Shown here piece after piece: positions 3,001 through 57,557 of a stretch of DNA of 64,000 nucleotides. Source of the DNA: Pyrinomonadaceae bacterium (GTDB taxonomy: Bacteria > Acidobacteriota > Blastocatellia > Pyrinomonadales > Pyrinomonadaceae); assembly GCA_014380365.1 (NCBI GenBank), contig JACMJZ010000031.1, positions 1-64,000 of the forward strand, read 5' to 3'. The position numbers were made by a program, and so were the translations under genes. Every line of letters begins with the position of its first letter. Positions within the stretch are counted from its first letter, which is position 1. The notes below the pieces were generated by a model. The model saw only the letters and a program-made list of their open reading frames with translations. It ran no database searches and was not told the DNA's origin.

Positions 3001-4921
3001 GATTAGGGCTGGGCGCGGCGTTCAGACAAAAATCGGCGCGGAACCCACCCTGCACCGTTTCCCTCGATCCGCCCGGCCTGAACCGGACTAGTCTCATGTC
3101 GAATTCCCACGGCACGCAGCACTGGCCCGCGGTGTGGACGAAGTAGAACGACTGTTCGTCGCCGGCGAGATCGGTGAAGGTGGTTTGACCATTCTCCTCG
3201 GCGAGCTGGAAGCGGCCACCGCAGGGGCGCAACTGATTTCTCAGCGGGCCGATGCGGGTGTAGTCCACGTCGAAGATGAAGTCGAAGTCTGGTTTGAAAT
3301 GGAGTGACCGGCCGTCGTTGCTGAGGCTGAAGTGTATGCCGACCTGCAGGTTGAAGAAGAAGAGCACTTTCAGTTCCCCACCCGGCTTAACCAGCGCGAC
3401 GACGAATGAAACAAAGAAGTCGATCGAAAACAGGATTACAACGCGAATCGAGATGACGATGGAACCGATGGCAAAGGGGTAGTCGTTAAGGAATTCGTTG
3501 AAGAGATTGAAGGGCGAGAACTGGAACCGAACATTAACGATGAGCACGATCTCGACGTGAATGATGAGCTCGATCCGCAGCGCCACCAGGAGACCCATGC
3601 CACGCAAGCGAAACAACTTTCCGACCTGAGCCAGGACTGGCGTGTCGCTGAGCGCGTCGCCGACGCCGTTATCAAAGAAGGGAATCAGGCGTACTTCGTT
3701 GAAGATCGGGATTCTAAACGTGCGTTCAAATATCCTGATATCGAAGTCGCCAAAGTTGAAGGAAAAGGCAGACAGAGATTGGCCGCGTGCATGGAAGACG
3801 GCGCTATCCTGGGCCGTCGGGCCGAGGAGTTTCTGGCCCGGGATGGGCGTCAGCGTTAGGCTGATGACCCCACCGGAGTCCGCGGGATCGCTCGCAACGC
3901 TTTCATCTGATGTAGACGATTTCGCCGCACTCATGTCCGCGCTCGGTGCGACTGTCATGGCAAACTGGCCCGCTTCGCTGCCGGCGGGGTCAAGCAGCTT
4001 GAGTTGCGCCGACTCCGGAACCGCAGCGCCTTCCGGGAAGCTGACGATAGCGGCGACTGTCTGGTCATCGCTTTTCTGTAAATGGACCAACGCGCCCTGT
4101 CCCAGGTCCAGCGAGCACCCCTCGAGATTCCTGCCAGCCACCATCACCAGGCTCGGCTTGCTGGGATCCAGGTTGGCGGTAAAACCAAGGACCACGGGGA
4201 CTGCCCGCGGGAGCACAAAGAACATCTGGCGGCTGGTCTCGAATACGCCGTCGTTTCCCGCGCCGGGACGGAGACTCGCGAGTACCTGAATGGCCTTCCG
4301 TTCGTGCTGCTCCAGAGGGGGCGTGGCAGTAACGCGCACGGTGAGAGTGAGCAAGTCGATACCAGTTGCTTCGTCAGTGCTGCTCGAAAAGCTGGAGAAC
4401 GTAATCTGGACCCGGGTCGAACCGCGCAGTGCAACTATGCCGTCGTTGTAGGCGGCAATCAGATTGCGACCGCGGAGGGTGATTTCAGATTCGGTATCTT
4501 CGATTATCGCGAGCGGTTCGATGCCGAGCACCTCGGCATGCAGGCTTGCCTCCGTCGTAACGTAAGTGAAGCCGTCCGGCCGGGTGGCGGAGTTGCCATC
4601 GGGATTGACGAGCGTAACGGAAACAGTGCCGGTCTGAGTTGCCGGTGGCAACTTGGCCGTGACCCTGGCGGTGCCCTGGAAAGTGACCTCGGGCGACGCA
4701 GTGTCACCGAAAAAGACCTGCGCGTCCGGCTGAAAGCCTGTGCCGGTAAGCGTGACGTCGGTTCCACCCGCCAAGCCCCCGGCTATCGGGGAAATACTAT
4801 TTATTCTGAGGGGACGTGGAAAGTCATCGTCGCCAGGGGGCCGTTGATCATCAGGCGGTTGCTGTTGGGAAGTGGATTCGGGGGTTTCTGGGGTTTCGGA
4901 GGCAGTCCTGGATTTGGGCAT
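1..4921 (-). CDS. Giant TIG/IPT and ASH-domain protein with C-terminal tandem XRE-like HTH (3' end outside window)
   Basis: One frame stays open from ATG at 4921 to the left edge, at least 1640 codons, with no stop seen. A GAGGA ribosome site lies just upstream of the ATG. The N-terminus is proline- and acid-rich without a signal peptide. Residues about 40-125 form a typical IPT/TIG fold (starts NSISPIAGG). A strikingly hydrophobic beta-type stretch lies at about 435-540. An ASH/choice-of-anchor-like domain lies at about 1360-1455 and a second TIG (SFDPTTGFSDED) at about 1460-1537. Straight after this come two helix-turn-helix units of XRE type: AASQLGVTSTTYRRWERG near 1560, then LAQRLGISTSTIHAW at the window edge. 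TIG and ASH domains normally build extracellular or structural proteins, so the DNA-binding-like end is unexpected. Function unknown. The domain calls come from pattern recognition, while the open frame is read directly. Confidence 0.85.
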   Translation of the reverse strand, partial: MPKSRTASETPETPESTSQQQPPDDQRPPGDDDFPRPLRINSISPIAGGLAGGTDVTLTGTGFQPDAQVFFGDTASPEVTFQGTARVTAKLPPATQTGTVSVTLVNPDGNSATRPDGFTYVTTEASLHAEVLGIEPLAIIEDTESEITLRGRNLIAAYNDGIVALRGSTRVQITFSSFSSSTDEATGIDLLTLTVRVTATPPLEQHERKAIQVLASLRPGAGNDGVFETSRQMFFVLPRAVPVVLGFTANLDPSKPSLVMVAGRNLEGCSLDLGQGALVHLQKSDDQTVAAIVSFPEGAAVPESAQLKLLDPAGSEAGQFAMTVAPSADMSAAKSSTSDESVASDPADSGGVISLTLTPIPGQKLLGPTAQDSAVFHARGQSLSAFSFNFGDFDIRIFERTFRIPIFNEVRLIPFFDNGVGDALSDTPVLAQVGKLFRLRGMGLLVALRIELIIHVEIVLIVNVRFQFSPFNLFNEFLNDYPFAIGSIVISIRVVILFSIDFFVSFVVALVKPGGELKVLFFFNLQVGIHFSLSNDGRSLHFKPDFDFIFDVDYTRIGPLRNQLRPCGGRFQLAEENGQTTFTDLAGDEQSFYFVHTAGQCCVPWEFDMRLVRFRPGGSRETVQGGFRADFCLNAAPSPNQIDVIVVSNRTPDGFPPPLELDILETDALKALAEPVDDAGHPIPGAELKDVTEMGFQVEFYLEKSLEVLDPGALRTGTALAQVAGENTIHARLFDVDLVIREGGPAFRPGSVLGFDILSFLARGLEPAVRTGTLPVIVSALPGTINVTLTLAYRDENANLIAVSEVVRNEPFDPQRQYLLAAMISLGAGVSKNQTLTFTVSTTAMSAPLVGIPLINFNRGRDSATPTSFFTGELAEKGKKGTIDLNSADVSKLVAVSGLNIKPNNVEEPITGALTKLVPPGKAVGNRDVKLSVKLSVTSNNSKTTVRVKKNTLDVIVSNQETFEEYLRVFQEVGEIMRSSDLENFEVSFDADLPDQGVDMGKIKGYLKKQGEKLWKDAVTEVQSKTTAPDDRPLYWVRLKCVAALRAYFKRKGLLAPSQEIINQFELPSRGLELDGSVSFGTAAGRKAVFTGFDTFSLPTRPLQSNPSGLAALAFNNKDFGPGDQVKVRSVVLPVRYADFDSNLIEKIASPSVLNSIVMLMTCSDNSGREFYDIERWAGRMRGTGIPDNNAAFKGGATSGGVIAPEKVATGPQFLESTLPYELVIATPTETLPGPSGTTPFVMDQSFRIVGANSANAGEVRPSPQTNDSDKTAWFTKLHEQPKAGATSLIGSGGNYLSNEIFYRVALARGAGTLPTGHLHVPSTHFDPTGAGPDLIEGVKEALNRLLAAAMLPRLRNLADLTFLRTIINNSRSLTLTAINDTSETITINSAEVAAPFTVSLPDPLPIAIDPGATLTLTLTFTPTAEGKFISAVRLRNTDGRLVLAYTLVGEGVQTLPGPQITSFDPTTGFSDEDTVTIFGANLDVTTAVRIGVLATPFTVVSDTQVTAEVNGPPRVARITVETPFGTAVSSGFFTVRRRRITQEDLAIQFLARRTELELNSREAASQLGVTSTTYRRWERGLDVPRTRYRPAIVRFLGHDPSGEPETFGERIRAARELEGISKPQLAQRLGISTSTIHAW

Positions 4922-50457: not shown

Positions 50458-50483
50458 CTCAACGGCAAGTTAGTTGGTTGTGA

Positions 50484-50539
50484 TGTCCGATCAGCTTTAG
50501 CTTGTCGTCGGGAGGCGACAAACTGAAGTTTGTCGGACA
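50484..50539. repeat. 56-bp hairpin repeat, copy A
   Basis: tgtccga at the left end pairs with tcggaca at the right; inside, agctttagcttgtcg faces cgacaaactgaagtttgtcg. Imperfect stem with G-U pairs when transcribed. Copy B at 52763-52818 has the same orientation, about nine differences, and flanks the other side of the peptide-maturase operon. Confidence 0.85.
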
Positions 50540-50577: not shown

Positions 50578-50607
50578 TTGACAGGCCTCAGGCAATTGAA
50601 TTATTAA
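50578..50607 (+). promoter_or_regulatory. Putative promoter of the peptide-maturase operon
   Basis: TTGACA at 50578-50583 matches the -35 consensus; TATTAA at 50602-50607 is a 4/6 match to -10 with an 18-base spacer. It lies 80 bases upstream of the first peptide gene. Confidence 0.5.
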
Positions 50608-50686: not shown

Positions 50687-50929
50687 ATGGCAACCCGAAA
50701 AACGACTACCAAATCAACCAGGAAATCGGCGTCTGCAAGTAGGACGTCCGGTGCTGCTGCGGCCATCCGCAGCGGTGCGTTACCTCCGTATGGCGTTCCC
50801 ATTCGTGCAGCAATCGCTCGCGGAGATCAGCGAGAGATGCAAGCGATTGGCGCAGCCACGCGTCAGCACTTGAAGAACGTTCAGTCTGCCCTCGCTAAAC
50901 TCGAGGGGGCATTGGGGAAGAAACGCTAG
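50687..50929 (+). CDS. Y-x10-GD peptide 1 (candidate modified peptide precursor)
   Basis: An 80-residue basic peptide with GGAG upstream of ATG 50687. The first 30 residues are Lys/Arg/Thr/Ser-rich, like a histone tail. The second part holds PPYGVPIRAAIARGDQREM: Tyr35, ten residues, then Gly46-Asp47, followed by a helix and a basic GKKR end. This is the Y_X(10)_GDL pattern (DUF1843-like) with GDQ in place of GDL. Peptides of this class occur beside dedicated radical SAM enzymes; here the enzyme is two genes downstream. What modification it receives, if any, is unknown. Confidence 0.8.
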   Translation: MATRKTTTKSTRKSASASRTSGAAAAIRSGALPPYGVPIRAAIARGDQREMQAIGAATRQHLKNVQSALAKLEGALGKKR

Positions 50930-50990
50930 TTATTCCCTCAGCCTGAGCACAACCTCAACTGAAGTTTTCACCCACTCGAAGGAGGATCCC

Positions 50991-51212
50991 ATGCCAGCTC
51001 GCAAAGCACCCACAAAAGCCGTGAAGACGTCGTCTAAACCAGCAAAGGTCAGCGTTCCTATTGTGGCCCTTTATGCAGTACCCATCTACAACGCCATTAA
51101 ACGCGGTGACGCTGCCGAGATGAAGAAACTCGCAACGCAAGCGCGAAAACACGTTGCCGATGTCACCTCTGCTTTGGCTGCCCTGGACAAGAAACTGGGC
51201 ACGAAAAGGTAG
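50991..51212 (+). CDS. Y-x10-GD peptide 2 (candidate modified peptide precursor)
   Basis: A 73-residue paralogue of peptide 1, with a strong AAGGAGG ribosome site. It reads VALYAVPIYNAIKRGDAAEM: Tyr28, ten residues, then Gly39-Asp40. The two peptides share YxVPIxxAIxRGDxxEM, a later RxH, VxSALAxL and an LGxKR end, while the basic leaders differ. It sits 61 bases after peptide 1 and 19 bases before the radical SAM gene. Conservation from the Tyr onward in both copies implies that region is the part that matters. Confidence 0.8.
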   Translation: MPARKAPTKAVKTSSKPAKVSVPIVALYAVPIYNAIKRGDAAEMKKLATQARKHVADVTSALAALDKKLGTKR

Positions 51213-51231
51213 CCCCCAGAGGGACTAGGCC

Positions 51232-52743
51232 ATGGCTGAGCCCACGCGGTATCTATCTACCGAAGATCGCGCGGCGCTAATACCTGTGCACGCAGTTTGG
51301 GAGATCACGCTCGCGTGTGATCTCAAATGCCAGCACTGTGGCTCGCGCGCAGGTAGTCGTCGCCCGCAGGAACTCTCAACGGAGGAGTGCCTTGATCTCG
51401 TCCGCCAATTAGCCCGCCTCGGTACGCGCGAGGTGACGCTGATTGGCGGCGAGGCCTACTTGCGTCGCGACTGGCTCGACATCATTCGTGAAATACGCGC
51501 CCAGGGCATGGAGTGCGGGATGCAGTCGGGCGGTCTTCATCTAACTGAAGAGCGGATACGTTTGGCAGCCGAAGCCGGTTTGCAGGCGGCCGGCGTTTCC
51601 ATTGACGGCCTGGCTGAGGTGCATGACGAATTGCGCGGAGTGAAGGGCTCGTTTGACGCTGCCTTCAATGCGTTGCGGTCGTTCAAAAAATATGGGCTCA
51701 CCGCCAGCGTCAACACGCAAATCACCTCCTTAGTCATCCCGCAGCTACGCGAACTGATGGATCTCTACATTGAAGCCGGGGCCAGGAACTGGCAGATTCA
51801 GCTCACGGTGGCGATGGGGAGAGCTGCAGATCACCCGGAACTGCTACTGCAACCTTACGAACTACTGGAGTTGATGCCGCTGCTCGCGGAGCTCTACCAG
51901 GAGGGCGCAGATCGCGGCTTGTTGATTCAACCGGGCAATAATATTGGCTACTTCGGTCCTTACGAATCTCTGTGGCGCGGCAGCGGCGACGACCGGGTGC
52001 ATTGGACTAGTTGTAACGCCGGCCAGAATACCATCGGGATAGAAGCTGATGGGACGATCAAAGGCTGTCCTTCGCTGCCTACTACGCCATACGGCGGAGG
52101 GAACATCCGCGACCTGACTCTGGAACACATCTGGCGGCACACCGATGAACTTAGTTTCACCCGCACGCGGACGGTAAACGACCTGTGGGGATACTGTCGC
52201 GGTTGTTACTATGCGGACGTTTGTCGCGCCGGCTGCACCTGGACCACGCACGTGCTGTTCGGACGTGCCGGGAATAATCCTTACTGTCACCATCGCGCGT
52301 TGGAATTGTCGCGGCAGGGACTGCGAGAGCGCATTGTGCAGATAGAGCGAGCGCCGGGGAAGCCTTTCGATCATGGCCTCTTTGAGCTGGTGTTGGAAGG
52401 ATCAGAAGGGCAGGCCCTCCCTATCGAGCACCCCCTGCCTCCAGGAGACGCCACGACGCAGCCGCTCTCTTTAGTTGGCAATTCAATTCCTTTGGGTGGG
52501 AATAGTTTGGTACAGATTCTTCCTGCCAAGAGGCAGCGCGGCAAGTCTCCTGCGAAAGTCCGGCCTTCCGAACCGATGGAGTTGATTATCTGTCGAGGTT
52601 GCAATCGTCATGTGATGATCGGTACGGAAATCTGCCCATACTGCGACGGCGACGTTAAAGCCTCAACCAGGGCCTATGAAAAGGAGCAGCGCGCGACACG
52701 GAAAGCGTACCTGAGGTTACTCAAACTCATGGAGCCAGTTTAG
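51232..52743 (+). CDS. Radical SAM/SPASM maturase of the Y_X(10)_GDL type
   Basis: A 503-residue enzyme. The radical SAM cluster is ACDLKCQHC (Cys29, Cys33, Cys36), followed by TLIGGEAYLRRDWL and VSIDGLAEVHDEL. A SPASM domain lies at about 262-350 with CNAGQNTIGIEADGTIKGC and CRGCYYADVCRAGC, for one or two extra iron-sulfur clusters. The C-terminus adds a zinc ribbon (CRGCNRHVMIGTEICPYC, about 460-477). The two adjacent Y-x10-GD peptides are the presumed substrates, which fits the in-silico Y_X(10)_GDL-associated family. Reaction unknown. Stop is 19 bases before hairpin repeat copy B. Confidence 0.9.
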   Translation: MAEPTRYLSTEDRAALIPVHAVWEITLACDLKCQHCGSRAGSRRPQELSTEECLDLVRQLARLGTREVTLIGGEAYLRRDWLDIIREIRAQGMECGMQSGGLHLTEERIRLAAEAGLQAAGVSIDGLAEVHDELRGVKGSFDAAFNALRSFKKYGLTASVNTQITSLVIPQLRELMDLYIEAGARNWQIQLTVAMGRAADHPELLLQPYELLELMPLLAELYQEGADRGLLIQPGNNIGYFGPYESLWRGSGDDRVHWTSCNAGQNTIGIEADGTIKGCPSLPTTPYGGGNIRDLTLEHIWRHTDELSFTRTRTVNDLWGYCRGCYYADVCRAGCTWTTHVLFGRAGNNPYCHHRALELSRQGLRERIVQIERAPGKPFDHGLFELVLEGSEGQALPIEHPLPPGDATTQPLSLVGNSIPLGGNSLVQILPAKRQRGKSPAKVRPSEPMELIICRGCNRHVMIGTEICPYCDGDVKASTRAYEKEQRATRKAYLRLLKLMEPV

Positions 52744-52762
52744 GGGTAGTATACCTGTTTGA

Positions 52763-52818
52763 TGTCTGACGAGCTTTAGCTTGTCGTTGCATTGCGACAA
52801 ACTGAAGTTTGTCGGACA
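52763..52818. repeat. 56-bp hairpin repeat, copy B
   Basis: Same structure as copy A at 50484-50539, same orientation. It follows the radical SAM stop by 19 bases and precedes the tRNA promoter, so it may also end transcription of the operon. Confidence 0.85.
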
Positions 52819-52889: not shown

Positions 52890-52966
52890 GCACCCGTAGC
52901 TCAGTTGGATAGAGTACCTGACTACGAATCAGGGGGTCGCATGTTCGAATCATGCCGGGTGCACCA
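52890..52966 (+). tRNA. tRNA-Arg (ACG) with encoded CCA
   Basis: Acceptor arm gcacccg pairs with cgggtgc, discriminator A, CCA encoded at 52964-52966. The anticodon stem cctga/tcagg closes loop ctacgaa, anticodon ACG. The T loop ttcgaat is regular. The 3' 45 bases (52923-52967, counting one base past CCA) recur perfectly at 54402-54446. Confidence 0.97.
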
Positions 52967-52982
52967 ATAAGATCACGCGAAA

Positions 52983-53008
52983 GGGCGTCCAACTCGGACG
53001 CCCTTTTT
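52983..53008 (+). terminator. tRNA-Arg terminator
   Basis: Stem gggcgtcc/ggacgccc with loop aactc, then ttttt. A near copy stands behind the truncated tRNA copy at 54462-54488. Confidence 0.9.
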
Positions 53009-53095
53009 GTTCAGCTTGGGAAGGGAAGCTTGCTTTCGTAACTTTCGCAATCTTGTGATCTGATTACGTTGCATAATCAAGGCCGAGATATATCT

Positions 53096-54394
53096 ATGGG
53101 CAAATACGAACGAAGGTATGCTCTATGGAAACATCACCGAGGACGTTGCTTTTGGTGTGATGAGCCTGTCGGCTTTCAGGAGTTTGAGATTGATCACTTC
53201 ATTCCAGAGCGCCTTGAAGACAATCCATCAGAGTTAAGTAAGGTAAGGGCTGATTTTGGGCTATCAGCCAGTTTTGTTATCAATGACTATTGTAATTGGC
53301 TCCCGTCTCATCGCCGCTGCAATCAGAAAAAAGGTGGCAGAATCCCTAAGCTGACATTGCACGCCATAGAGACTCTGGACAAACTAGCCCGCGATGCGGA
53401 GACGATTCGATCAATAGAACGTGAGATAGAGCAAAAGTTTAGGGATGACAAGCGTTTCGCACAGGCAATGGTTGGAATCAAAGCCGGACTCAACACCAAC
53501 AAATTCACCAAAGACCAAAAGGACGAAATGAAGGCCCTGTTTGCGGATCCAGAACTCGCACAGGACGAAGATATTCAGCTTTTGCGGAAGGAAACCTATC
53601 TCGACATTGATCAGCACTATGTTGACTTTCTGAATCGCAAGCCTGACCCGAATAGCCTCGCGTTCTGGAAGAATCAAATTACGGAAGGACAGCAGTCGAG
53701 TACATCCGACCAAGGTGACGTCCTCGTTAACGTGTCCTCAGCGTTCTTCCTTTCCACTGAGTTCTATGAGAGTGGCTATCTAGTTTACCGAATGTTCAAA
53801 GCAGCCTTCGGCAGTGCCACTGGGGCGTCGACCCTAGGGGGCACCCACATGCTGTCGGTACCTATCGTCCGGCTCAGCGAATTCGTTCCTGCCATTCAGG
53901 AGATTGGACAAGGTGTAATCGAGGGTACTTGCGAGTGGCAAACACAGTTAGAAAGCAACAAGGCGAAATTCATGTTGGAATTTGTTTCGCGTTCCCGATT
54001 CACCTTTGCCTATCCAACGTCGTTGACGCCAGCACAATTCGTTGACGCGCTCTACGTGAACGCTGGAGTTACGCCATCGGCAGCGGAGCGAAACTCAGTC
54101 ATCAACGAATTTGGGGCTGCTACCTCGACCCCCGACACGTCCGCGCGAGCGCGTTCGTTGCGACGAGCGGCGGAGAGTTCTACCTTGGCGCAACAGGAGT
54201 TCAATAAAGCGTTTGTGTTGATGCAGTACTTCGGCTACTTGCGAAGAGATCCCGACGATGCACCGGACACTGACTTTAGTGGCTACGACTTCTGGGTGAG
54301 GAAGTTGAATCAGTTCAATGGAAATTATGTTGAAGCGGAGATGGTCAAGGCATTCATTACCTCTGATGAGTACAGACAAAGATTTGGCTCGTAG
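53096..54394 (+). CDS. HNH endonuclease-DUF4214 fusion protein
   Basis: A 432-residue protein from ATG 53096; a TTG nine codons earlier is possible. Residues 1-90 form an HNH nuclease with HRGRCFWCDEPV, FEIDHFIPE, NWLPSHRRCNQKKGG; both CxxC-type half sites (CFWC, and one Cys in RRCN) and the HNH residues are visible. The C-terminal two thirds carry two DUF4214 units (DFLNRKPDPNSLAFWKNQI with FFLSTEFYESGYLVYRMF, and FGYLRRDPDDAPDTDFSGYD with FITSDEYRQRFG). DUF4214 is usually in secreted surface proteins, so the pairing is odd. Codon use is more AT-rich than neighbours. No signal peptide. Confidence 0.9.
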   Translation: MGKYERRYALWKHHRGRCFWCDEPVGFQEFEIDHFIPERLEDNPSELSKVRADFGLSASFVINDYCNWLPSHRRCNQKKGGRIPKLTLHAIETLDKLARDAETIRSIEREIEQKFRDDKRFAQAMVGIKAGLNTNKFTKDQKDEMKALFADPELAQDEDIQLLRKETYLDIDQHYVDFLNRKPDPNSLAFWKNQITEGQQSSTSDQGDVLVNVSSAFFLSTEFYESGYLVYRMFKAAFGSATGASTLGGTHMLSVPIVRLSEFVPAIQEIGQGVIEGTCEWQTQLESNKAKFMLEFVSRSRFTFAYPTSLTPAQFVDALYVNAGVTPSAAERNSVINEFGAATSTPDTSARARSLRRAAESSTLAQQEFNKAFVLMQYFGYLRRDPDDAPDTDFSGYDFWVRKLNQFNGNYVEAEMVKAFITSDEYRQRFGS

Positions 54395-54401
54395 TTCGAA
54401 A

Positions 54402-54446
54402 TACGAATCAGGGGGTCGCATGTTCGAATCATGCCGGGTGCACCAA
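54402..54446 (+). repeat. Truncated 3' copy of tRNA-Arg (right end of cassette)
   Basis: Forty-five bases identical to 52923-52967, from the anticodon to just past CCA. The 5' half is missing, so it is not a functional tRNA. The HNH-DUF4214 stop codon lies eight bases before it. Confidence 0.95.
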
Positions 54447-54461
54447 CAAGTTCAACGCGAA

Positions 54462-54488
54462 AGGACGTCCAACTCGGACGCCCTTTTT
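54462..54488 (+). terminator. Duplicated terminator
   Basis: Stem aggacgtcc/ggacgccct with loop aactc, then T run. One base differs from the tRNA-Arg terminator at 52983-53008. It now ends the HNH-DUF4214 transcript. Confidence 0.8.
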
Positions 54489-54524
54489 GCTTGGACACGC
54501 TAATTCTCGGCTACCGGGCGCTGC

Positions 54525-55844
54525 TCAATCGATGAGGGTCAGCTCGCACGTGCGGCTTGGACCTTTGTAGTCGAGCCAGACTAATAGATACATACCGATC
54601 GCCGAGTCGCCTTGCTCCTGGTACCCAGAGTACGGCCCATCAGTGAAAAAACAGGTGCCCCATGCGTTTGATACGTGGTTTGTTGCCTTGTTGCCGTCTA
54701 TACCGCTGGCGTCTCCACCACTACCTATATTTGTCCTCCAACGACCGTCAGCTGGTGAGTAGTACAACAGAGCTGTCTGGGAGGCAGTCTCTGTCTCCGT
54801 GTTATTGTCCCAGCGCGTCATCCCCAATCGAAACGCACAACCATCCTGATCGCCACAAAGGTCATTGATTACTTGCTGCGGAATTTGCCTGGTTCGCCCG
54901 CCGTAGGTGGCTGCAGTCAACGAGAGGTGATAGCGGGGGGAGACCTCATACAGTGTCTCAGCCGAATCGTCCCTTTGGTAGCGGCCCTGGGAGCTGAGTG
55001 TCCCTCCAACACGCATATTGCCGGCCACATCCAATTTTGCCTGAGGTGCGGTCGTGCCGATGCCGACATTGCCGCTATCTTTCACGACAAACCGTCCGGC
55101 CACAATCCCCGGGGCATCCACGTTCAGTTCGCCGGTTCCGCCGATGCTCATCGCGGCCACGCCGGCATTTGCGTCAAGCCGCAACGCCGTTGTGACTCCC
55201 CCTGCAACTTGCAGCTTGCTGAACGCCGGATTAGTCGTGCCGATGCCGACGTTGCCGTTGGCTAAATCCACCGCCAGGTGGGTATTTGGCGTAGCGGCGC
55301 CTCCGACGGAATTTCCGGTTGACCCCTGAATGAGAAATTTGCCGCCGGATTTATACAACCAGGCAACTGACCCATCACGGGCAAGCCAGGAATTGTTTGT
55401 ATAATCCACATCAAATCCGAGAGCGATGTTATTCGGTGAATGTGCCAAGACTGAGAGGCTTCCTCCGTTATTGGCGGAGATTCTTAATTGACTTGTAGTG
55501 GCTGGCGTGACTCGTGAGTTGAGTTGCAAGAGATTGCCCGGTGTGGATGTGCCGATGCCGACGTTGCCATCGTTGCTGACAAAAAATGAATCAAGCGCGC
55601 TTTGGCCGAAGACAATCGTGGCACCGGCTAGCAGTACGCCCGCTATGGTGAGAGCGAGCCGCTTCGGAGTCGCACCCCAGTGTTGCTTCCGGGCAACCGT
55701 TTGGCTGGCGTGCCCCGGCACGCTGGCTTCGAGGGCGGCAAGTCTCTGCCTGAGCGCGTCCAACTCTGCGGCTGTAACCGAAGCTTCCGTGGAAGAATTC
55801 GAAAAATCAGTTTCACGGCTTTTAGCTATATCTTGAGTCATCAT
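54525..55844 (-). CDS. Tail-fibre-like protein with GNVGIGT repeats
   Basis: A 439-residue protein. The N-terminus (TDFSNSSTEASVTAAELDAL) is a short helical leader followed by a TM segment (RLALTIAGVLLAGATIVFG). The body contains four GNVGIGT-P type turns (SNDGNVGIGTSTPG, LANGNVGIGTTNP and others), as in bacteriophage-tail-like and cell-surface beta-helix proteins. A C-terminal globular part carries four cysteines. The leader is shared with the gene at 57657. An AAGGAG ribosome site precedes the ATG. It is probably surface-exposed and the last gene of the minus-strand cluster. Confidence 0.8.
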   Translation of the reverse strand: MMTQDIAKSRETDFSNSSTEASVTAAELDALRQRLAALEASVPGHASQTVARKQHWGATPKRLALTIAGVLLAGATIVFGQSALDSFFVSNDGNVGIGTSTPGNLLQLNSRVTPATTSQLRISANNGGSLSVLAHSPNNIALGFDVDYTNNSWLARDGSVAWLYKSGGKFLIQGSTGNSVGGAATPNTHLAVDLANGNVGIGTTNPAFSKLQVAGGVTTALRLDANAGVAAMSIGGTGELNVDAPGIVAGRFVVKDSGNVGIGTTAPQAKLDVAGNMRVGGTLSSQGRYQRDDSAETLYEVSPRYHLSLTAATYGGRTRQIPQQVINDLCGDQDGCAFRLGMTRWDNNTETETASQTALLYYSPADGRWRTNIGSGGDASGIDGNKATNHVSNAWGTCFFTDGPYSGYQEQGDSAIGMYLLVWLDYKGPSRTCELTLID

Positions 55845-55907
55845 TCTCTCCTTTGTGAAAGATCATGAGGCGCGTTCATCGGCGATCGCGATTCGGAGTT
55901 ACGTTAC

Positions 55908-57557
55908 TCAATCCAACTTCTTCAGCGACGCCGTACGGGCGGCGGGCTTGCAGGCGGAAAGCAGCAGCGTCTCGATGGCGGCCAGGCGCTTCTCCTGATC
56001 AGCGAGCTGGCTGCGCAAGGAGGCGTTCTCATCCTGCAAGGCTTTCACTTGCGCGTCTTTTTCTTTTTTGAGTTCCTGCGTGGCCGAAACATTGAGCATC
56101 GCGACGGCGTCATAGTCCAGGGTACGGAAGTCGTTCACCTGTCGGCCAAAGACGAAGACCCTTCCTCCGTCGGGCTTGAAGTCGGTGCGGAACCTGTCTT
56201 TCGCCGCCTCCAGCACTTCATAGACACCTTCGGCCTTCTCAGAAATCAGGCGTACGCGCTCACCTTTTTTCAGATCCGTAGCCAGTTCCACCCAGCCGTC
56301 CACGGACGACGCCCGCTGGTAGATGTCGGGCACCACATCAGTCTGCTTACTTACCGCCTGTGGGAAGACTTTCTCAACCTGCTGCGCAATAAGCTTCTTG
56401 TGAGAGGCATCGCCGTTCCCGATCACGTCCTGGTAGCGATAGTCGGTGACCTCGATGGTGAGCAGCGTGAGGAGATCGTTCGCGCTGTCGGAGCGGCGCT
56501 GGACGTTCTTGAGGCGTCCGTCCGACCGGGCATTAAATTCGCTTGCGCTTATGCGATCCGAGGCCCAAATAGAGTAAGGCTGCACCTGATCACCGGCTGA
56601 ACCAGACCCTCCGCTGGTAAAATACCAGTAGGCCCCAGTAGAGGTCATGACGGATCCATTAATCACCAGCTTCCCCTGTGTTGGCGTGGTCGTCCCGATG
56701 CCTACGTTGCCACCCTTCTCGATCAGCAATCTGACATCTCCGCCAGCACCGCCGTTCTGATTCCCAATCACAAAATCGCCGGTATTGCCCCAACCTCCGA
56801 CACCTGCCACCCAGGCAGTGTTCGTAGTCCGGGCACTAGTGTCAAAAAACCCGATAGTGGCCTCTCCCGCGGTTGCTGCATTATTATTGACTCTCAGCAT
56901 GCCAAAACCGGAATCCGTTGAGAAGATGTCCAGCGCCTTTGCCGGATCCGTTTTCCCGATGCCGACGTTGCCGCTGCTATCCAGGGTAAGTCGCGCCGTA
57001 CTATCTTCTGAGGTAGACCCGGTGAATAATTGCAGCTTGGTACCGCCGGAATCCATGCCTATCGACGCTTTTTGAGCACCGGCTCTGAAAAGCATGTAAC
57101 CATCTCTCCAACCCGATTGGGCATCCTGCGCATAGTTACCACCCGCAGTAGATTTACCAACCGTTACGTTGCCGCCGCTGAAGGTGTAACCAACAGACCC
57201 AGTCTGAGAACCTGAAAAATCCAGGAATCCAGTCGTGGGGTTTCTGCCGAACGTGTAATCAGTGGTACCTGAATTACTTCCAATTCGAATCTGCTGACCA
57301 GCGACAGTGTTAGTTCCATCTATGATGGAAAGACGAGATGCCGGCGCCACCGTGCCGATGCCGACGTTGCCATCTTTGATCGTCAGCGCCTCAGCAGATT
57401 GTTGGCCCTGCGCCACGCCGATGCCGCCGCCAAGGAGGCTTAATGCAACGAGCGCACAACTGAACGCCGCCCATCGGCTGAAACGCCTAACGCCGCGCGA
57501 ACTCCGGTTGCGTGCCGCCAGGAGCATTGGTCGGGATTTTGTGATGAACTTTTTCAT
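55908..57557 (-). CDS. Tail-fibre-like protein with S74 chaperone domain
   Basis: A 549-residue protein with an N-terminal signal or anchor (CALVALSLLGGGIGVAQ). The body has GNVGIGT-P turns (KDGNVGIGTVAPASR, EKGGNVGIGTTTP). The C-terminus from about residue 340 is an S74 intramolecular chaperone: SEFNARSDGRLKNVQ contains the SD..LK signature, then LIAQQVEKVFPQAV, and a long C-terminal coiled coil (QELKKEKDAQVKALQDEN). Such domains trimerise the fibre and then cut themselves off. It works as a surface fibre or adhesin; the receptor is unknown. Cluster gene beside the collar-like protein. Confidence 0.85.
   Translation of the reverse strand: MKKFITKSRPMLLAARNRSSRGVRRFSRWAAFSCALVALSLLGGGIGVAQGQQSAEALTIKDGNVGIGTVAPASRLSIIDGTNTVAGQQIRIGSNSGTTDYTFGRNPTTGFLDFSGSQTGSVGYTFSGGNVTVGKSTAGGNYAQDAQSGWRDGYMLFRAGAQKASIGMDSGGTKLQLFTGSTSEDSTARLTLDSSGNVGIGKTDPAKALDIFSTDSGFGMLRVNNNAATAGEATIGFFDTSARTTNTAWVAGVGGWGNTGDFVIGNQNGGAGGDVRLLIEKGGNVGIGTTTPTQGKLVINGSVMTSTGAYWYFTSGGSGSAGDQVQPYSIWASDRISASEFNARSDGRLKNVQRRSDSANDLLTLLTIEVTDYRYQDVIGNGDASHKKLIAQQVEKVFPQAVSKQTDVVPDIYQRASSVDGWVELATDLKKGERVRLISEKAEGVYEVLEAAKDRFRTDFKPDGGRVFVFGRQVNDFRTLDYDAVAMLNVSATQELKKEKDAQVKALQDENASLRSQLADQEKRLAAIETLLLSACKPAARTASLKKLD

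Follow-up and report, generated by a model that had tools for sequence, protein, structure and literature searches.

A DUF1843 operon from a Pyrinomonadaceae bacterium that probably encodes a protein-splicing system, with a zinc ribbon fused to its maturase

Among described radical SAM maturases, the splicease PlpX is reported to excise tyramine at X-Tyr-Gly sites with the help of a partner, PlpY (PMC10533398, PMC11002830). Its natural sites are MYG and LYG, and a tag of the form ...PIRPGYGLPI is described (PMC10533398). This backbone splicing installs a ketoamide, and its described uses are the labelling of proteins and the inhibition of proteases (PMC10533398, PMC11002830). DUF1842 and DUF1843 genes are described as regulated in other bacteria. 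In Chromobacterium, quorum sensing raises DUF1842/DUF1843 genes, with the maturase described as co-expressed (PMC12114271), and a DUF1842 gene is raised by quorum sensing in a further report (PMC10197875). Iron raises a DUF1842 protein in C. violaceum (PMC4216352), and stationary phase raises DUF1842/DUF1843 genes in Burkholderia thailandensis (PMC12322963).

The window analyzed here is a stretch of 64,000 nt from a Pyrinomonadaceae bacterium (contig JACMJZ010000031.1, positions 1–64,000). On its plus strand, nt 50687–52743 encode two small basic proteins followed by a 503-aa radical SAM/SPASM enzyme. Predicted substrate peptide 1 (50687–50929, 80 aa) and predicted substrate peptide 2 (50991–51212, 73 aa) are both DUF1843 proteins, scoring 34.0 and 42.5 bits against the PF08898 cut-off of 23.3. 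The maturase gene follows at 51232–52743. The original prediction had placed such a peptide pair directly before the enzyme in one operon, and this arrangement is confirmed, as are the open reading frames with their starts and stops and the gaps of 61 and 19 nt; the operon reading is supported. The promoter-like TTGACA that it also invoked is visible by eye at 50578, but a consensus scan returned no plus-strand site there, so this element adds little.

Two copies of a dispersed, REP-like palindromic repeat bracket the operon, upstream at 50481–50539 and downstream at 52760–52818 (plus strand; a 59-nt pair, 86% alike). The repeat core has 40 matches in the genome, counted with up to 2 mismatches on both strands, so that palindromic sites are partly counted twice. 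The same genome holds 20 radical SAM matches in all and no further DUF1843 match at E 1 or better. Within 52890–54489 of the window, the 3' part of a tRNA-Arg (acg) and the 35-nt terminator-like stretch that follows it are duplicated, at 54402–54489, and the duplication brackets a single ORF (53069–54394), which matches DUF4214 and, weakly, HNH. The layout resembles an att-type duplication flanking a small insertion; no integrase was seen. The stretch has 27 further DNA matches elsewhere in the genome. On the minus strand, 54525–57557 encodes two neighbouring proteins with repeated NVGIGT motifs, which presumably resemble trimeric tail or adhesin proteins.

By its sequence, the operon is a member of an already named family. 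The enzyme scores 639.3 bits with TIGR03913 (rad_SAM_trio; 'GDL motif peptide-associated' maturase), above the cut-off of 591.75, and the earlier assignment to the Y_X(10)_GDL family was thus right. The runner-up NCBIfam model is TIGR04103, at 502.3 bits and below its cut-off of 725. PF04055 and SPASM also exceed their cut-offs. In an alignment of 30 enzymes, the radical SAM CxxxCxxC cysteines (Cys29, Cys33 and Cys36; 51316–51339) and the SPASM-region cysteines (Cys261, 279, 322, 325, 331, 335 and 352; 52012–52287) are invariant across both TIGR03913 and TIGR04103 types.

We compared 57 DUF1843 copies, 48 of them distinct over the compared stretch; the seed was picked by its Y-motif, and the profile found copies outside the seed as well. 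Tyr is present in 57/57 copies, and it is the only position without variation among the 48 distinct ones. Both window peptides carry the Tyr-x10-Gly-Asp pattern on which the original prediction was built, yet the pattern is less strict than supposed: among distinct copies, Tyr occurs in 48, Gly in 42, Asp in 40 and the following Leu in 35 of 48. (In a set of 22 aligned peptides, the Asp of G-D is constant, as is Tyr.) We rejected strict Y-x10-GDL as the defining signature, since with these counts GDL does not define TIGR03913 membership. The strict GDL tripeptide is absent from both window peptides, which have GDQ and GDA instead; the Gln and Ala, once singled out, are ordinary variation.

Among the 48 distinct copies, the Tyr is preceded by Leu (31), Pro (15) or another residue (2) and followed by Gly (30), Ala (17) or Met (1). 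Peptide 1 has an X-Tyr-Gly site, Pro34-Tyr35-Gly36 (50786–50794), and peptide 2 has Leu27-Tyr28-Ala29 (51069–51077). To follow the pairing of these types, we counted 64 DUF1843 copies in 29 loci (26 of the 80 best relatives described below, the window and two plasmids), with one to four copies per locus. P-Y was followed by Gly in 23/23 copies; the residue after L-Y was Ala in 19 copies, Gly in 17 and Met in one. Of the 29 loci, 28 have one or more Y-G copies; the exception, L012, is cut upstream by the contig end. In 20 of 22 multi-copy loci a P-Y-G copy is paired with another copy, and the window pair is of this common type.

This pairing bears on which peptide would be modified. Ala or Met follows Tyr in 23/64 copies, which places these copies outside the known X-Y-G rule, and they could be unspliced partners. 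One reading has the Y-G copy alone spliced, with the L-Y-A copy binding the spliced copy or the enzyme as a decoy or scaffold. The association of P-Y with Gly and the pairing in 20/22 loci fit it, as does the near absence of YA from the X-Y-G ORFs of sister loci (3, versus 120 YG). Tyr is equally constant in the Y-A copies, however, which suggests that it is used there, and we hold the reading only tentatively; it is a variant of, and compatible with, the explanation that we prefer. By analogy, we predict tyramine splicing of peptide 1 (P-Y-G) and, less surely, of peptide 2 (L-Y-A).

The basic N-terminal part of the peptides had been taken for a leader. Among 22 aligned peptides, however, 13 have no more than 5 to 7 residues ahead of the Tyr, and a conventional leader is thus lacking; within this set, the Lys/Arg/Ala-rich basic start was found in the six peptides from acidobacterial loci. 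Spliceotide precursors have a Nif11 or nitrile-hydratase-like leader; neither kind matched the window peptides, DUF1843 being the sole family above cut-off. In a structure model of peptide 2 (mean pLDDT 71.6, pTM 0.40), residues 1–28 lack regular structure and helices span 29–38 and 41–71, so that Tyr28 directly precedes two helices.

A scan of species genomes yielded 322 relatives, of which we kept the best 80 loci; plasmid matches were considered in addition. A C-terminal zinc-ribbon tail is present in 25 of these 80, and DUF1843 genes adjoin 25/25 of the tail-bearing enzymes. Peptide and enzyme therefore do co-occur in other genomes, a point on which the original prediction had staked itself. 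Among the 55 tail-less loci, DUF1843 genes are present in L027, where the enzyme gene is broken into two ORFs with the ribbon on the second. A protein of L049 matches DUF1843 weakly (18.6 bits, under the cut-off of 23.3), and in the other 53 loci none was found by profile. Six plasmid records match the enzyme at E 1e-80 or better, and all six were inspected. In four of them, two or three DUF1843 genes lie upstream, and the ribbon was found in both of the two checked among these. Of the other two, one has a Nif11 precursor and the second, from Tropicibacter, has no Nif11, DUF1843 or ribbon. On this Tropicibacter oceani plasmid (L109), the related enzyme shares its gene set with another radical SAM enzyme and with two peptidases, one trypsin-like and one of the M23 type.

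Within its phylum, the operon has a patchy distribution. Among 396 phylum genomes sampled, TIGR03913 and DUF1843 exceeded their cut-offs in the same two, that of the window (G000) and G286. Four more had an enzyme match at E 1e-60 or better, below cut-off and without DUF1843, and one (G356), lacking the enzyme, matched DUF1843 at E 9e-4, also below cut-off. Over the compared core, the enzymes of G286 and L007 do not differ, so these may be the same genome. Outside that sample, which is not complete, two more genomes of the genus and family, G399 and G422, also carry the enzyme tail; they appear to be those of L003 and L004. On a catalytic-core tree of 79 rows, built by a quick method, the 27 rows labelled as zinc-ribbon enzymes formed one group with L018, L020 and L049 (SH-aLRT 99). 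This group spans Acidobacteriota, Gemmatimonadota, Bacteroidota, Cyanobacteriota, Myxococcota and Pseudomonadota, and the label needs two changes on the tree. The sister enzymes are 49–62% identical to the window enzyme.

These sister loci point to the chemistry. In 33/55 tail-less loci, a neighbouring ORF on the same strand contains two [LMPIVAR]YG[VILMAGTS] motifs or more, compared with a mean of 1.3 loci in 200 shuffles (at most 5) and with 4 loci for the opposite strand; by this motif, 22/55 lack such an ORF. The cyanobacterial enzymes of L066 and L081 exceed the TIGR04103 cut-off. Together with that of the near relative L064, they adjoin proteins with LYG or MYG motifs, and both cyanobacterial precursors scanned (L064 and L081) match Nif11. 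The described PlpX system is arranged in this way (PMC10533398, PMC11002830). A Nostoc plasmid carries a Nif11 precursor ending SIALYGLPPELF, maturase 3 and a small downstream gene. We take TIGR04103 to be IPR026482, the InterPro entry named for PlpX, so the likeness to PlpX is by family model rather than by its own sequence. From the second-best match to TIGR04103, the Nif11/X-Y-G layout of the sisters, the excess of multi-YG ORFs and the likeness of the sites, we infer the same reaction as that of PlpX.

It seems unlikely to us that the enzyme performs some other radical SAM chemistry on this Tyr, for instance a C-C or C-O cross-link or a mycofactocin-like decarboxylation, with a classical cross-linked product. 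Other SPASM maturases do act on Tyr, the mycofactocin, PqqE and SkfB models match the enzyme at lower scores, and PqqE and SkfB appear both among solved structures matched by sequence and as the best solved structures in Foldseek. But the TIGR03913 and TIGR04103 matches are far stronger (639 and 502 bits, versus 113 for mycofactocin and 98 for PqqE), a second constant position besides Tyr is absent from the 48 distinct copies, and X-Y-G repeat proteins occur at many sister loci. The folds of PqqE, SkfB and SuiB are too general, and we set solved structures aside as a guide to chemistry.

Judging from sequence and analogy, the operon probably encodes a protein-splicing modification system. In the proposed mechanism, the enzyme would cut the core of one Tyr, as tyramine, from the peptide backbone and rejoin the chain. 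The Tyr lies directly before the conserved helix pair, which would stay in the product and probably positions the site, and the substrate would need no classical leader. The chemistry, which had been called undescribed, is probably not so, given that the nearest described relatives are tyramine spliceases and that the peptides' Y-G resembles the splicease recognition site. Splicing of DUF1843-type proteins may even be in print already, in Scott et al. 2022 (Chem 8:2659) and in the 2024 article of Richter et al.

In a structure model of the enzyme (30 sequences, mean pLDDT 83.5), a flexible linker at about residues 394–447 (52411–52572; pLDDT <50 at 398–443) leads to a zinc ribbon at residues 451–474 (pLDDT 87–95 by blocks). 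The ribbon, CRGCNRHVMIGTEICPYC, has Cys454, 457, 468 and 471 (52591–52644) and is followed by a helix at residues 475–500 (52654–52731). The original prediction regarded this ribbon as an addition. The enzyme of L017 matches the 477-position TIGR03913 model through to position 477, and with the tail in 25/80 relatives the ribbon is better seen as part of the family. A RiPP recognition element (RRE) in the tail was considered and rejected, as the modelled tail is a zinc ribbon plus one helix, without the beta3-alpha3 winged helix.

We searched a profile of 26 enzyme tails against the other ORFs of the loci. No second ribbon was found in the 25 tail-bearing loci. Of the 55 tail-less loci, 39 had a match outside the usual tail and 16 had none. 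In L018, L020 and L049 the enzyme is tail-less and the ribbon is encoded by a separate gene, with a 4-nt overlap between its start and the stop of the enzyme gene; in L018 and L020 this gene includes the helix, and in L020 it encodes 75 aa. In 32/55 tail-less loci, most of them from myxobacteria, a single ORF carries the ribbon followed by Y-G motifs; there are 55 such ORFs that are distinct, and in 3 of the 32 loci the ORF is on the other strand. Seven of the 39 have a ribbon with no YG after it (L018, L020, L049, the split L027, L042, L076 and L077).

The ORFs with ribbon and YG, putative substrates, have the ribbon near the start: an ATG or GTG lies at most 35 residues before it in 54/56 stretches. 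Of all 63 ribbon stretches, 50 have a hydrophobic stretch and a lipobox-like Cys after them. In L030, L033, L036, L060, L074 and others, the order is zinc ribbon, hydrophobic stretch with lipobox-like Cys, and an acidic/Gly/Pro-rich YG region. Their sequences suggest that the myxobacterial X-Y-G proteins may be lipoproteins that are spliced and lose the ribbon leader to signal peptidase.

How specific are these ribbon matches? Generic zinc ribbons are common. Beyond the separate and precursor ribbons, matches to the tail profile fall to noise. One apparently unrelated ORF (G009, L100) scored 38.5 bits, above 56 of the 57 YG-followed precursor ribbons listed; the next generic score was 25.7, exceeded by 43 of these 57 among the matches listed. 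The reverse search was cleaner than this forward one. A profile from 16 precursor ribbons alone, run on 59 genomes, ranked three enzyme tails first (38.4, 37.9 and 29.6 bits), with the window enzyme second of the three and other zinc ribbons at 25.0 bits or less, among the matches listed.

PlpY-like helpers were sought as well. A conserved small ORF with LLPRSAW, which is probably PlpY, lies within 175 nt behind the enzyme in 6 of the 8 cyanobacterial-type loci inspected (L062 and L080 being without). A profile of the six probable PlpY proteins found none near the window operon; the best match in the window was at 4434 on the minus strand, with E 0.39. In two Eremiobacterota loci (L078, 2782–3147; L079, 5617–5994), YG proteins start with MEEPLLPRKxW and a likely helix. 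Since these starts resemble the probable cyanobacterial PlpY, the PlpY-like module too may have moved onto a substrate. Such LLPRxxW leaders were seen in only these two related loci, at profile E 5 to 7, and the motif gave 11 matches versus 2.6 in shuffles, 3 of the 11 elsewhere.

These placements could mean that spliceases use a portable docking module in three positions: a separate helper behind the enzyme, an N-terminal leader on the substrate, or the enzyme C-terminus. We regard the case for this as evenly balanced. There would be two unrelated modules, the zinc ribbon plus helix and the PlpY-like LLPRxxW helix. The window enzyme would represent the third form, a leader built into the enzyme, in which ribbon and helix on their flexible linker would replace the PlpY helper of known spliceases. 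A built-in leader would free the substrates from carrying one, so that a splice site can start a folded protein. If so, an enzyme with its own docking module and small leaderless substrates would make a simpler splicing tool, and the three ribbon placements would allow substrate finding by radical SAM maturases to be tested clearly. Among the open-licence papers listed for the zinc-ribbon arrangement, none mentions a zinc ribbon, which says little about print overall; the term 'zinc ribbon' is also absent from a 2025 article on recognition elements (PMC12710340).

In the surroundings of 20 of the 25 tail loci and the window, any non-precursor ORF of at least 90 aa was common to 3 of 12 lineages at most, and nothing there stands out as a dedicated transporter or protease; we dropped a conserved transporter, protease or immunity gene on this count. 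(ORFs antisense to the enzyme gene were excluded from the count.) Hence the products seem to stay in the cell. The proposed mechanism would yield an intracellular electrophilic (ketoamide) protein, and we suggest that it is perhaps a protease inhibitor. That DUF1843 proteins are instead structural and self-assembling, the enzyme having another target, is very improbable: a self-assembling complex was proposed from paralogous repeats in operons, yet the protein is described as a monomer in solution, with no assembly (PMC10994174), and DUF1843/DUF1842 are the only genes found recurring widely beside the enzyme. The DUF1842-DUF1843 crystal structure could not serve as a guide, as its DUF1843 part is described as unresolved (PMC10994174). 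Splicing, if true, would be the first biochemical role for DUF1843, a domain of unknown function.

Compared with known systems, the window operon is closest to the TIGR03913/DUF1843 systems of Azospirillum, Caulobacter, Nitrospirillum and Chromobacterium, which share the enzyme by curated cut-off, the upstream DUF1843, the tail and the Tyr position. It differs from them in its two peptides with a basic Lys/Arg/Ala-rich N-terminal extension, and the DUF1842 fusion carried by L017 is absent. The ribbon resembles an RRE in its putative docking role and in being fused or separate; its modelled fold differs. PlpY, too, is described as excluded from strict RREs (PMC12710340). In the spliceotide system, tyramine excision leaves an alpha-keto-beta-amino acid, an outcome that for the window operon is predicted by analogy. 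With PlpXY and the spliceotides it shares an enzyme 49–50% identical to the TIGR04103-type L066, L080 and L081, and an X-Tyr-Gly site: the ..GYGLPI of the PlpX tag (PMC10533398) resembles PYGVPI and LYAVPI of the window peptides. Unlike PlpXY, the window operon has no Nif11 leader or PlpY-like gene and has a zinc ribbon instead; its site precedes a helical domain that would be retained, and Y-A copies occur.
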